NCBI GenBank assembly: GCA_903926385.1
Contig: CAIYIS010000049.1
Location: forward strand, 1-52,716
Direction: 5' to 3'
DNA from: an uncultured Bacteroidota bacterium
GTDB taxonomy: Bacteria > Bacteroidota > Bacteroidia > 2-12-FULL-35-15
Length of the DNA stretch: 52,716 bases
Shown: positions 593-30,330 of the stretch, one piece after another
Layout: the number at the start of each line of letters is the position of its first letter
Position numbering within the stretch: position 1 is the first letter of the stretch
Made by a program: the position numbers and the translations under genes
Notes under the pieces: generated by a model
What the model was told of the DNA's origin: nothing
The model's database searches: none
The model's input: only the letters and a program-made list of their open reading frames with translations

Positions 593-706
593 CCTTGTGG
601 CGAGGGCTCACCCGCTTTCCATTCCAATCTTTTGCCGATGAACTATCGGCAAAAGGATTTCCATTACAATCGGGTTTAGATAGTAAGTTATCTGCTTTGG
701 CTAACC
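593..706. repeat. 114-bp direct repeat with hairpin, copy B
   Basis: Perfect copy of 5-118, with its hairpin at 629-639/645-655. The absence of any mismatch implies recent duplication or gene conversion. Confidence 0.9.
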
Positions 707-794: not shown

Positions 795-1724
795 TTACGG
801 CAGCGGCACCATACTAATATCCACCGTGGCGTTTTGGCCTTCCACAAGCGTTACATCCACACTAAAATCGGTAAAGAGCGGATGAGTAGCTATTAATTTT
901 TGCACATCCATAAGGGTTGTAGTAAATTTATAACCGCTTGCATCGCTTATGCCATTGTTGTTTCCGTTTTCAAAATAAACATCAGCACCCAGTATCACAT
1001 CTCCCGTTACACTGTTTTTTACCGTACCACTTACTATTTTACTTACACCCACTCTTACATAAACAATGCCCCACAATCTGCCCTGCACCCTCAACGCAGC
1101 ATGAGGCAAATTACTAAAATGAGTTTCTACCTCGTTCCATACAAATAGTATCGTATCATCAGCCACAGCATTCAATCCATTTAACGTATTCGAAGCCGCA
1201 GTAAGAGCACTTACGCTTGAGCTTTTGGCATTTTTGGTGGCTGTAAACGTATTGTTAAGAGCTATTATTTTAGCAATAGCAGGCATAGACATGGCAGCCC
1301 CGCCTGCTGCCACACGCGCCACCTCTCCCGAAATAAGATTGGCCGCCACATCGGCTATTTGGCTGTACGTGTCCATTGCAGGCACATTGCCATTACTATC
1401 TAAATGATAAAACTGAAAATTACCTACCGGAAATTCTTCATCTTCTACAGCCAACGCAAATACTTTAATAAACCGGGCACAGGTTCTCTTTAATTTAGCT
1501 GCCGCCACTTCATGGGCTGCCGAATTAATTATATCTGTGTTCGATTTGGTAAACCAGTCGTTATACGCAGTTTTATAGAGTGGCTGATTGGTGGTAAGTT
1601 TGGTTTTGGTGTCGGCACTCAAAAAACTGGATGCCCCTAATAATGTGTATTGATCGAATGCATTATTTAAAGCTGTATTGCGTTTTACATTCGAATTTGG
1701 TATTTCTCTGCTTTCTGTTCCCAT
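795..1724 (-). CDS. Orphan protein with C-terminal carboxypeptidase-regulatory-like domain
   Basis: 309 residues, function unknown. There is no signal peptide, lipobox or membrane segment, so it is probably cytosolic. Residues 1-225 or so are mainly helical and alanine-rich, with no recognised family. The last 80 residues (from SGTVKNSVTGDVILGADVYF) look like the small beta-sandwich carboxypeptidase-regulatory-like fold: conversion of a G-x-V start, an internal NGxSDASG turn and a final alternating V/I strand are visible. The start codon is the ATG at 1724-1722. The gene stands alone, between hairpin repeats downstream and the 42-bp palindrome array upstream. The same plan (helical front, small beta domain at the end, no export signal) is seen in the gene at 47520-48455. 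It could be a structural or adhesion-like intracellular protein; nothing in the sequence decides this. Confidence 0.7.
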   Translation of the reverse strand: MGTESREIPNSNVKRNTALNNAFDQYTLLGASSFLSADTKTKLTTNQPLYKTAYNDWFTKSNTDIINSAAHEVAAAKLKRTCARFIKVFALAVEDEEFPVGNFQFYHLDSNGNVPAMDTYSQIADVAANLISGEVARVAAGGAAMSMPAIAKIIALNNTFTATKNAKSSSVSALTAASNTLNGLNAVADDTILFVWNEVETHFSNLPHAALRVQGRLWGIVYVRVGVSKIVSGTVKNSVTGDVILGADVYFENGNNNGISDASGYKFTTTLMDVQKLIATHPLFTDFSVDVTLVEGQNATVDISMVPLP

Positions 1725-1845
1725 AGTATTTAGTTTTTAAATGTTTTATTTAATTTATTTTGTTTGATTTCGTATTAAGATTTTTTTCACTGCTTTTATT
1801 TACTGTTTTTACTTTTTTGTACGTTCATTTTCTCCTCGGTTTACT

Positions 1846-2033
1846 TTTTCTAATATTAAAAGAACAGGTTTTGTCACTTTTTTACCCTATTCTAATATTA
1901 GAATAAATTGCCCGCCAACTAGAATTACTTCTTCTAATATTAAAATCTATTTTCCGAGAGCTCGACTACCCCATTTTAATATTAGAATGTATAATCCCGG
2001 AACCAATTTTACCCCTTCTAATATTAGAAGGTG
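1846..2033. repeat. Five palindromic sites at exact 42-bp spacing
   Basis: Five copies of a core close to TTCTAATATTAGAA have their central TAATATTA at 1851-1858, 1893-1900, 1935-1942, 1977-1984 and 2019-2026, so every centre is exactly 42 bp from the next. The conserved part extends leftwards to about TTTACCCC; the roughly 20-base spacers are unrelated. Copies 2 and 5 are perfect palindromes; copies 1 and 3 lose the right half-site, copy 4 the left. 42 bp is four turns of B-DNA, placing all sites on one face. The array lies between the divergent genes at 795-1724 and 2295-2564. A protein-binding array (operator or iteron-like) is the likeliest reading. A candidate minus-strand -7 element (TAGTTTTG) lies at 2158-2165. 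Confidence 0.85.
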
Positions 2034-2294
2034 TTCCCCCAGTACTCGGGAAGGTGTTGCTAAGTAAATGCTTTTCATCACTTTAACTAAAAACCCGCCA
2101 AAATGACAGTTTTTTGCCCCCTGTTATGCCAAAAAAACAGTTCCTCAAAACCGAGGGCAAAACTATGAAATAGAAATTTATTTACCCACCCCTATACAGG
2201 GGTAAAATGCTATCTGTTAACTCACCTATTGAAATTTTATTTATTTTTATGCCGTAATTTCAGAAGTTCAACTTAATTTTTAAACTACAAAAAG

Positions 2295-2564
2295 ATGAAT
2301 GAAAAAGCAATCGAATTATACAATCAATTGAAAGAGGGAAGAAAAAACATTGTCAAATTAATTGCCCTAGGCTATACTAGCGAAGAGATAGCCAAAAAGA
2401 CAGGTTACTCTTACCATACAATAGGCTCCTTCCGTAAAGAAATTTACAAATGCATACAAGTAAACACCGACCAGCAAGTAACAGCTTTTGCTATTTCTAT
2501 CGGAATAGTTACTGCCGAAGAAGTATTGATGGCAAAGGAAAACGACAAAGATTTATGGCCATAA
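2295..2564 (+). CDS. Small stand-alone LuxR/GerE-type helix-turn-helix protein
   Basis: 89 residues. Residues 15-60 match the LuxR/GerE DNA-binding fold: KLIALGYTSEEIAKKTGYS is the scaffold and first HTH helix, and YHTIGSFRKEIYKCI is the recognition helix, followed by the family's usual short closing helix region. There is no receiver, PAS or ligand domain, so it is a DNA-binding module alone; Bacteroidota carry many such short proteins. The ATG at 2295 is preceded by an A-rich leader, as usual in this phylum. It lies directly beside the five-site palindrome array, whose twofold symmetry would suit a dimer of a LuxR-type protein, so it is a candidate binder; this is inference from position only. 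A promoter for the next gene begins 34 bp past its stop. Confidence 0.8.
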   Translation: MNEKAIELYNQLKEGRKNIVKLIALGYTSEEIAKKTGYSYHTIGSFRKEIYKCIQVNTDQQVTAFAISIGIVTAEEVLMAKENDKDLWP

Positions 2565-6231: not shown

Positions 6232-6414
6232 ATGCTGACCAAAAAGAAATTTATTAAATCAATGAAAGATTTGCCAGAAACATTTTCAGTTGATGAAATT
6301 ATAGACCGTGTAATCTTGCTTCAAAAAATCGAAATCGGTTTGGAGCAATCTATAGGAAACAAAGTGCATTCTACAGCCAATGCCAAAAAGAAACTTAAAA
6401 AATGGTTGAAGTAA
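6232..6414 (+). CDS. Small antitoxin candidate
   Basis: 60 residues, lysine-rich, with a central FSVDEIIDRVILLQKIEIGL segment resembling the short helical antitoxin partners of ParE/RelE toxins in Bacteroidota. It has its own promoter and its 3' end overlaps the toxin start by 13 bases, the usual antitoxin-toxin coupling. The assignment rests mostly on that arrangement, since the sequence itself is too short to place in a family with certainty. Confidence 0.75.
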   Translation: MLTKKKFIKSMKDLPETFSVDEIIDRVILLQKIEIGLEQSIGNKVHSTANAKKKLKKWLK

Positions 6415-6728
6415 ACTTTACAGACCAAGCGCTTACTGATATCGAAAACATAGCAGCCTTTATTGCCAAAGATTCTGAAAAATATGCAGGTATACAGGTA
6501 AAGCGTTTTTTCGACCGAGCTGAAATACTTGAAACAAATCCTTTGTTCGGTAAAATAGTACCTGAATTAAATGACAAATCTATCCGGGAATTGTTACTCG
6601 GGAATTATCGTATCATTTATCGCATTGTCACTACCAAACGAATTGATATTTTAACTATTCATAGTAGATTTATGTTGATTACTAATTCGCCTGCATTCAA
6701 AAAATATCGAAAAAAGAACATTGAATAA
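6402..6728 (+). CDS. ParE/RelE-family toxin
   Basis: 108 residues, the normal length for the ParE/RelE fold. Visible family features are VNFTDQALTDIENIAAFIA at the front, a basic middle with KIVPEL and IRELLLGNYRIIYRI, and HSRFM near the end (the conserved C-terminal basic strand, about 84-90). RelE members cut mRNA on the ribosome while ParE members poison gyrase; which applies cannot be read from the sequence, though the GNYRIIYRI strand is of the ParE-like type. Its last codon and stop lie at the start of a 26-bp sequence copied from the T9SS gene end. Expressed with the antitoxin at 6232. Confidence 0.85.
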   Translation: MVEVNFTDQALTDIENIAAFIAKDSEKYAGIQVKRFFDRAEILETNPLFGKIVPELNDKSIRELLLGNYRIIYRIVTTKRIDILTIHSRFMLITNSPAFKKYRKKNIE

Positions 6729-17990: not shown

Positions 17991-18096
17991 ATTTTTCGTA
18001 AAGTTTCTCCAAAATTAACCTAACTTTATATATTTCAATAAAATACCACCATTTCACCCACCCATTTTCCCTATAAAAACACCCTTTACCCATATT

Positions 18097-18401
18097 TCTC
18101 CACTCCAAACCCACATTCATCCACCCAAAATCCACATAAGCACCACCCGAAATCCACATAAGCACCACCCGAAATCCATATACATCCACTCCAAAACCAC
18201 ATTCCTCCACTCCAAATTCATATATCACCGCTCCAAAACCACATACGCACCACCCGAAATCCACATAAGCACCACCCGAAATTCACATACGCACCACCCG
18301 AAATTCACATAAGCACCGCCCGAAATTCACATAAGCACCGCCCGAGATTCATATACGCACTGCCCGAGATTGGCATACATCCGCTCCAAATCGACATTTT
18401 T
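18097..18401. repeat. Degenerate 22-bp tandem array (about 14 copies)
   Basis: Units such as CACCACCCGAAATCCACATA start at 18141, 18163, 18248, 18270, 18292, 18314, 18336 and 18358, exactly 22 bp apart in each run; between 18185 and 18248 two units are one or two bases short. A second unit type with CCACTCCAAA is mixed in at the edges and in the middle. As 22 is not a multiple of 3, the minus-strand frame through it (17968-18264) is not a gene. Function unknown. Confidence 0.85.
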
Positions 18402-29478: not shown

Positions 29479-29585
29479 GCTTTTAATTACTCTATTTCAG
29501 ATTTCAAATTAAGACAGGAAGGTTAGCTCAAGATATAGTTTCAAGTTGTCATTGCCAGCGAAGCGAAGCAATCTCTAAACTTCAA

Positions 29586-29800
29586 TCTCACAACACACAT
29601 CTCAATTCTCACATCTCAATTCTCACATCTAATATCTCAAATCTAATTTGGGCGTTTACCCTTACCTCTTCGTCCGCACCTGCTCACCCGCTTTGCCTTT
29701 CAATCTTTTTCTTTGCCCGAAAAGGTCAAAGAAAAAGGATTTCCAGTTCAATCGGGCGCAGTTAGTCAGCGCATCGCTTCTAATAACCTTTAAGTATATA
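29586..29800. repeat. Dispersed hairpin repeat, copy C, with a CTCACAT-type lead-in
   Basis: A run of near-repeats of CACATCTCAATTCT leads to ATCTCAAATCTAATTTGGGC, then the hairpin 29705-29715/29727-29737 (arm CTTTTTCTTTG), then AAGGATTTCC, ATCGGGCGCAGTTAGTCAGC and CCTTTAAGTA. The same order of blocks occurs at 47140-47320; the hairpin and its flanks resemble 5-118. Confidence 0.75.
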
Positions 29801-30086: not shown

Positions 30087-30330
30087 ACTATAATGATGTT
30101 CGGGGGAGTTGTTAGAATGATTCGGGCAGTTGTAAAAATGTTCGGGGGAGCTAAAAACACACTTCGGGGGAGTTGGTAAAATGATTTGGGGAGTTGTAAA
30201 ATAGTTCGGGGGAGTTGGTAAAAGGTTAGGGGAAGTTATAAGAAGGTTCGGGGGAGTTAAAAACAAGCTTCGGGGGAGTTGTAAAAAGGAATGGGGGAGT
30301 TGTAATAATGGTCGGGGAGTTGCCTCAAAA
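30087..30330. repeat. Degenerate 21-bp tandem array (about 11 copies)
   Basis: Units like TTCGGGGGAGTTGTAAAAAT follow each other at about 21 bp, shown by a seven-residue rhythm (TPPNLLI, TSPNLLP, TPPNYFT...) in the minus-strand translation. All units keep the GGGGGAGTT core. 21 bp is two helical turns. It lies just upstream of the orphan gene at 30402. No start, signal or family supports a protein from it. Confidence 0.85.

Follow-up and report, generated by a model that had tools for sequence, protein, structure and literature searches.

A helically spaced array of palindromes in a Bacteroidota genome and its association with a divergent gene for a 309-amino acid protein

What does a row of short palindromes held at a fixed distance do, and to which neighboring gene does it belong? 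The question is raised by contig CAIYIS010000049.1 of an uncultured Bacteroidota bacterium (assembly GCA_903926385.1), of which we analyzed a stretch of 52,716 nucleotides, here called the window. The original prediction was of five palindromes locked at 42-bp spacing, with spacers that are unrelated and free to vary, and of a small helix-turn-helix (HTH) protein encoded next to them as the likely binder. We suggest, at a probability of about one in two, that the array is a helically phased, dimer-binding promoter platform governing a different gene (795-1724, minus strand), and that it belongs to a class of Bacteroidia arrays in which dyads lie on a 21- or 42-bp lattice.

The array in the window and its paralogous copies

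Five TTYTAATATTARAA sites occupy positions 1848-2029 at a step of exactly 42 bp across all four gaps, which confirms the predicted spacing. Each site has at most one mismatch to TTCTAATATTAGAA: sites 2 (1890-1903) and 5 (2016-2029) have this sequence, sites 1 (1848-1861) and 3 (1932-1945) read TTCTAATATTAAAA, and site 4 (1974-1987) reads TTTTAATATTAGAA. There is also a half-period dyad, TCCCCCAGTACTCGGGAA (2035-2052), formed around AGTACT and centered at 2043.5, exactly 21 bp past site 5. A single TTCTAATATTAGAA motif is not unusual alone (9 observed at three or fewer mismatches versus 8.97 expected), and the two-site 42-bp pattern matches the genome 17 times forward and 15 times in reverse; the reversed control matches twice in each direction. 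Between units of the window array, identity is 93% in the 14-bp cores and 37.5% in the 28-bp spacers.

The spacers are thus unrelated between units, as had been noted, but they are not free, because each is conserved with its counterpart in two longer relatives of the array that lie elsewhere in this genome, on contigs C81 and C57 (80-85% identity). Both relatives carry the five units in the window order, and counterpart spacers are 71-85% identical versus ~41% between different units. The C57 copy equals the C81 copy plus exactly one 42-bp unit. In all three copies the phase-0 class of the 21-bp lattice has the top dyad score (permutation p <= 0.002).

The array block in the window (1834-2115) is homologous to the right-hand part of the long copies, which have inverted repeats of ~80-150 bp (alignment scores of 61-62 versus a shuffled maximum of 34). 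Terminal inverted repeats, a MITE criterion, are therefore present in the C81 and C57 copies and are not intact in the window copy; in a comparison of the flanks by eye, no target-site duplication was clear. The genome contains three copies of this block, and most of its other arrays are unrelated in sequence (58 singletons and 12 small families). Immediately outside the C81 copy lies a 53-bp segment (L006, 2000-2052) that recurs on contig C79 and in the genomes G004, G026, and G014.

The 309-amino acid protein gene as the constant partner

The gene at 795-1724 (minus strand) is separated from the array by a leader (1725-1833, minus strand) that ends at its start codon. It encodes a 309-amino acid protein with a helical N-terminal domain and a C-terminal carboxypeptidase-regulatory-like (transthyretin-type) domain. 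The AlphaFold model (pLDDT 91.7) has long helices at residues 12-217 followed by a transthyretin-like sandwich, and a fold search returned matches to the C-terminal domain only (5aq0 to residues 229-309, Z 12.1, rmsd 1.7 over 80 residues). Likewise, only the C-terminal domain matches families in Pfam, NCBIfam, or PHROG, with none found for residues 1-228. The gene has no match in the plasmid collection.

Members of this gene family are present in 24 of 395 Bacteroidia genomes. We surveyed the 600 bp 5′ of the homologues by a tandem-repeat search and a lag test against shuffles. Among 25 homologues, which represent the taxonomic families f1, f4, f10, f16, and f71, the strongest lag is exactly 42, 84, or 126 bp in 22 (z 5-53); L256, which has a wrong start, is counted among the 25 and not among the 22. 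In L273 and L274, a 42-bp array lies further up, at about -835 to -688. The lag test shows no array in six homologues from four other taxonomic families. Such lags precede 33 of 867 control genes from the same or related genomes (3.8%; Fisher p 5e-26, a value that overstates the strength because the homologues, from five families and with several near-identical orthologues, are not statistically independent) and occur in 1 of 23 downstream flanks. Across the other loci, the median distance from array end to ATG is ~90 bp.

The palindromes themselves differ between homologous loci (TTCTAATATTAGAA in the window, CCTTACCAGTTGGTAAGG in G014, TTCGCAATATTGCGAA in L247, and TTGTGTAACTACACAA in L259). 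Between most loci the array sequence is unrelated, and the 42-bp lattice, often with 21-bp dyads, is kept. The helical phasing and dyad symmetry to which the original prediction drew attention are no accident, although of the two features expected to be conserved in related genomes the spacing persists and the core does not. Spacing rather than sequence seems to matter, because the arrays of distant relatives share the one and differ in the other. Tested individually, dyads reach p<0.05 in 8 of 24 arrays, and where a second dyad lies within 18-24 bp it is offset by exactly 21 bp, with the same center type, in 6 of 9. The array makes up the 5′ flank of the divergent 309-amino acid protein gene and is associated only secondarily with the HTH gene.

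Arrays with periods of 21n across genomes

We examined ~1.2 Mb of the source genome for 8-mer recurrence in intergenic DNA. Per 100 kb, recurrence at lags of 21, 42, 63, 84, 105, and 126 bp is 335, 303, 213, 204, 134, and 123, versus 8.9 at the median lag; off the lattice it is 4.9 at lag 20, 71 at 22, 25 at 41, and 20 at 43. Periods are multiples of 21 in 82 of the 140 arrays with units of at least 18 bp, and 58 of 85 unit sequences have no relative. Arrays of this type are few or absent in three genomes of the same genus (G009, G033, and G008) and many in G014, G026, and G027, as well as in G299 from another family (200 per Mb), in samples that were small (20-80 kb, and 400 kb for G009).

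Genome-wide, 25 of 61 21n arrays score at least 4.5 of 7 for dyads, the threshold used, versus 7.4 expected; ~60% of those in the source genome have no strong dyad, and many precede ordinary genes. We claim dyad enrichment and not strong covariation inside the arrays, because the z score of the latter fell from 13.6 to ~3 when the null also included selection of the best phase.

Two origins for the 21-bp period were rejected. A heptad origin is contradicted by the absence of 7-bp autocorrelation inside units. Coding repeats of 7 or 14 amino acids do not fit either: the window array is open in one frame, but the C81 paralogue has a stop in that frame, unit substitutions have no 3-periodicity (KS p 0.74), and 21n stands out while other multiples of 3 do not.

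Genes of further families without known function directly follow 21n arrays. Most of their members are no test of the link because they were collected for having an array. Two members not chosen in this way (L213 and L147) do have one, with a lag of 21 and z of 7-8, and the genes that follow arrays detected by pattern in L098 and L005 belong to array-linked families. The A4 family has largely the same genome distribution as the window family. Profile comparison found no relation of A4-A7 to the window family; by hhalign, A4 and A8 as well as A5 and A6 look related (E 5e-5 and 8e-5, probability 61-68%). For the second array-linked family the structure model is poor (pLDDT 42), and no viral relative was found. 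Acidic or neutral sequences predominate among the linked proteins, in which no DNA-binding signature was found.

Several other repeats were observed. The window contains arrays at 18090-18367, 29582-29648, and 30091-30322, with periods of 21/22, 42, or 106 bp and sequences unrelated to the array above. An array with TTCTAATAATAAAA on contig C10 is a repeat of its own and no copy of the window array; the gene that follows it also belongs to an array-linked family. One Tannerellaceae MAG has a dispersed 42-bp unit family with the core TTGTAAYGTTACAA at four loci (L110, L111, L113, and L115); the flanking genes inspected at L110 and L113 look ordinary. Several long ORFs run across one 42-bp array in L118 (1551-2319), on both strands, and spurious ORFs of this kind may be annotated as repeat proteins.

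Candidate roles and comparison with known repeats

The observed anatomy is an exact lattice with dyads on it, recurrent 5′ of the homologues with unrelated sequence and rare before other genes. In the promoter platform that we favor, the class would consist of short dyads on a lattice of 21 bp (two helical turns) or 42 bp, each array lying ~50-250 bp 5′ of its gene, and these genes would come from a small number of families without known function. Along one face of the helix, one or more dimeric proteins would occupy the dyads and stack cooperatively, with a strength set by how many 42-bp units there are, and the bound protein would control transcription of the linked gene. We infer from the dyads, the integer-turn spacing, and the 5′ position that protein is bound cooperatively and that it controls the linked gene. 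Because sequences differ between loci and spacing does not, each array may have its own cognate binder, or a binder that responds to shape and phase more than to sequence; a single global factor is unlikely because each array has its own sequence. Placement of the promoter failed (TAnnTTTG occurs 5 times versus 1.2 expected before the array and 2 versus 0.7 after it).

More tentatively, the arrays and their genes may form a new and widespread kind of bacterial unit that is defined by the lattice of dyads rather than by sequence, with tens of pairs per genome, partner proteins without known function that belong to several unrelated families, and a recognition sequence that co-diverges with its cognate binder. 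This broader proposal has a modest chance of being right.

We consider it rather improbable that the arrays are functionless minisatellites, made by slippage or unequal crossing-over and in some cases carried in MITE-like elements, with the 21 bp set by the machinery that makes or corrects them. Such an origin would fit units that are unrelated between arrays, the dispersed multi-locus families, the copy-number step of one unit, the inverted repeats of C81 and C57 (61 versus 34), and the lack of an A-tract or 10.5-bp internal signal. It leaves unexplained why arrays lie on the 5′ side of 22 of 25 homologues versus 3.8% of control genes, and it does not account for the half-period dyads.

A precedent for minisatellites of this kind is known from Porphyromonas gingivalis, which has the BrickBuilt MITE with a 23-bp minisatellite and MITE464/PgRS with 41-nt repeats; promoter activity has been reported there (PMC4596501). 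These elements resemble the arrays here in being intergenic, multi-copy, head-to-tail repeats of Bacteroidia in elements with inverted ends and predicted stem-loops (PMC4596501). They have units of 23 and 41 nt and one shared sequence per element family (PMC4596501), whereas the units here are exactly 21n, have locus-specific sequence, and are linked to specific gene families by lying on their 5′ side. Our search of open-licence papers found no description of such arrays, BrickBuilt being the closest (PMC4596501); the exact 21n lattice with free sequence and the gene link are not in its description. REP/BIME elements are also dispersed intergenic palindromes, with REPs of 20-40 bp that have a common tagged sequence (PMC3733652); the arrays here share spacing and not sequence and lie 5′ of linked genes.

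The HTH gene (2295-2564, plus strand) diverges from the 309-amino acid protein gene and encodes an 89-amino acid GerE/LuxR-type protein, a possible local binder whose GerE-like domain falls just under the cut-off (E 5e-5). That the array is an operator of this protein alone, which would bind the five 6-2-6 dyads cooperatively and control both divergent genes, is unlikely. The homogeneous cores of the window array (93%) are consistent with it, as is the recurrence of the three-part layout in G014, where an HTH homologue (31% identity) and a homologue of the window 309-amino acid protein diverge from a CCTTACCAGTTGGTAAGG array with 42-bp steps and a different palindrome. No HTH gene adjoins the C81 or C57 copies, however, and one lies next to an array in two species only, at two of ~25 homologous loci; other loci have the array and the 309-amino acid protein gene, and a search of G026 and G034 found no close HTH homologue. 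An operator of this kind would also leave the array class unexplained. Array and HTH gene co-occur in two species, the role of general partner is unsupported for the HTH gene, and the constant partner is instead the gene at 795-1724. The HTH protein may bind the window array and serve as cognate factor just at this locus and at the one in G014.

In phased multi-operator promoters (e.g., of NarL or AraC type), a divergent regulator gene adjoins dyad sites that are spaced by whole helical turns. The window array shares the whole-turn dyads and has a divergent candidate regulator gene next to it, whereas the arrays as a class have no recognition sequence common to loci, usually lack the regulator gene, and have up to ~10 units.

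It is still less probable that the array acts as RNA, forming a row of hairpins within the linked gene's 5′ leader transcript for attenuation, stability, or translation control. The array sits between the start codon and possible upstream promoters, its palindromes are able to form hairpins, and the blocks fold better than shuffles (z -3.4 to -5.2), but they do so on both strands, mismatched arm pairs have no excess of G-U over A-C (6 versus 12), a lattice of integer turns of B-DNA has no rationale in RNA, and no Rfam family matches the array above the gathering cut-off. DNA is weakly favored over RNA because of the lack of G-U bias in mismatched arms and the integer-turn metric.

Intrinsically curved or stiff DNA, with two-turn units that sum to planar curvature for supercoil or nucleoid placement, is very unlikely: it would suit 21 bp as the smallest integer multiple of 10.5 and the free unit sequence, but A-tracts in 21n arrays are near the shuffled level and below other intergenic DNA (3.07, 2.8, and 5.8 per 100 bp), and units have no internal 10-11-bp periodicity.

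Two known systems were rejected. The array is not a CRISPR array, which would have identical repeats and unique spacers taken from invaders, since its spacers are conserved between paralogous copies and its repeat core is only 14 bp. Iterons and plasmid or chromosomal centromeres also have direct repeats of ~20-22 bp on one helical face; unlike them, the arrays here have no adjacent rep or par gene (the flanks encode the 309-amino acid protein, the HTH protein, and a T9SS-sorted protein), occur at many loci per chromosome instead of one or a few per replicon, and have no plasmid match.

Conservation is mostly judged by sequence letters; in these arrays, the letters are completely replaced and the helix-turn metric of two or four turns is kept beside the same genes across several Bacteroidia families. 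If the arrays are protein-binding platforms, they would be a natural test set for selection on helical phase alone and a handle on several protein families that have no annotation in the databases searched. If instead a repeat-generating process with a 21-bp ruler produces them, the literature searched contains no description of it.

The window contains a few other features. A Flavo-1 RNA is predicted at 604-681 (minus strand; 65 bits versus a gathering score of 42). Positions 1-120 and ~590-715 are a near-identical direct duplicate (cttgtggcgagggctcacccgctttcc...) that flanks the left side of the region. A ParE-type toxin gene lies at 6402-6728, and a 60-amino acid ORF just upstream may encode its antitoxin.
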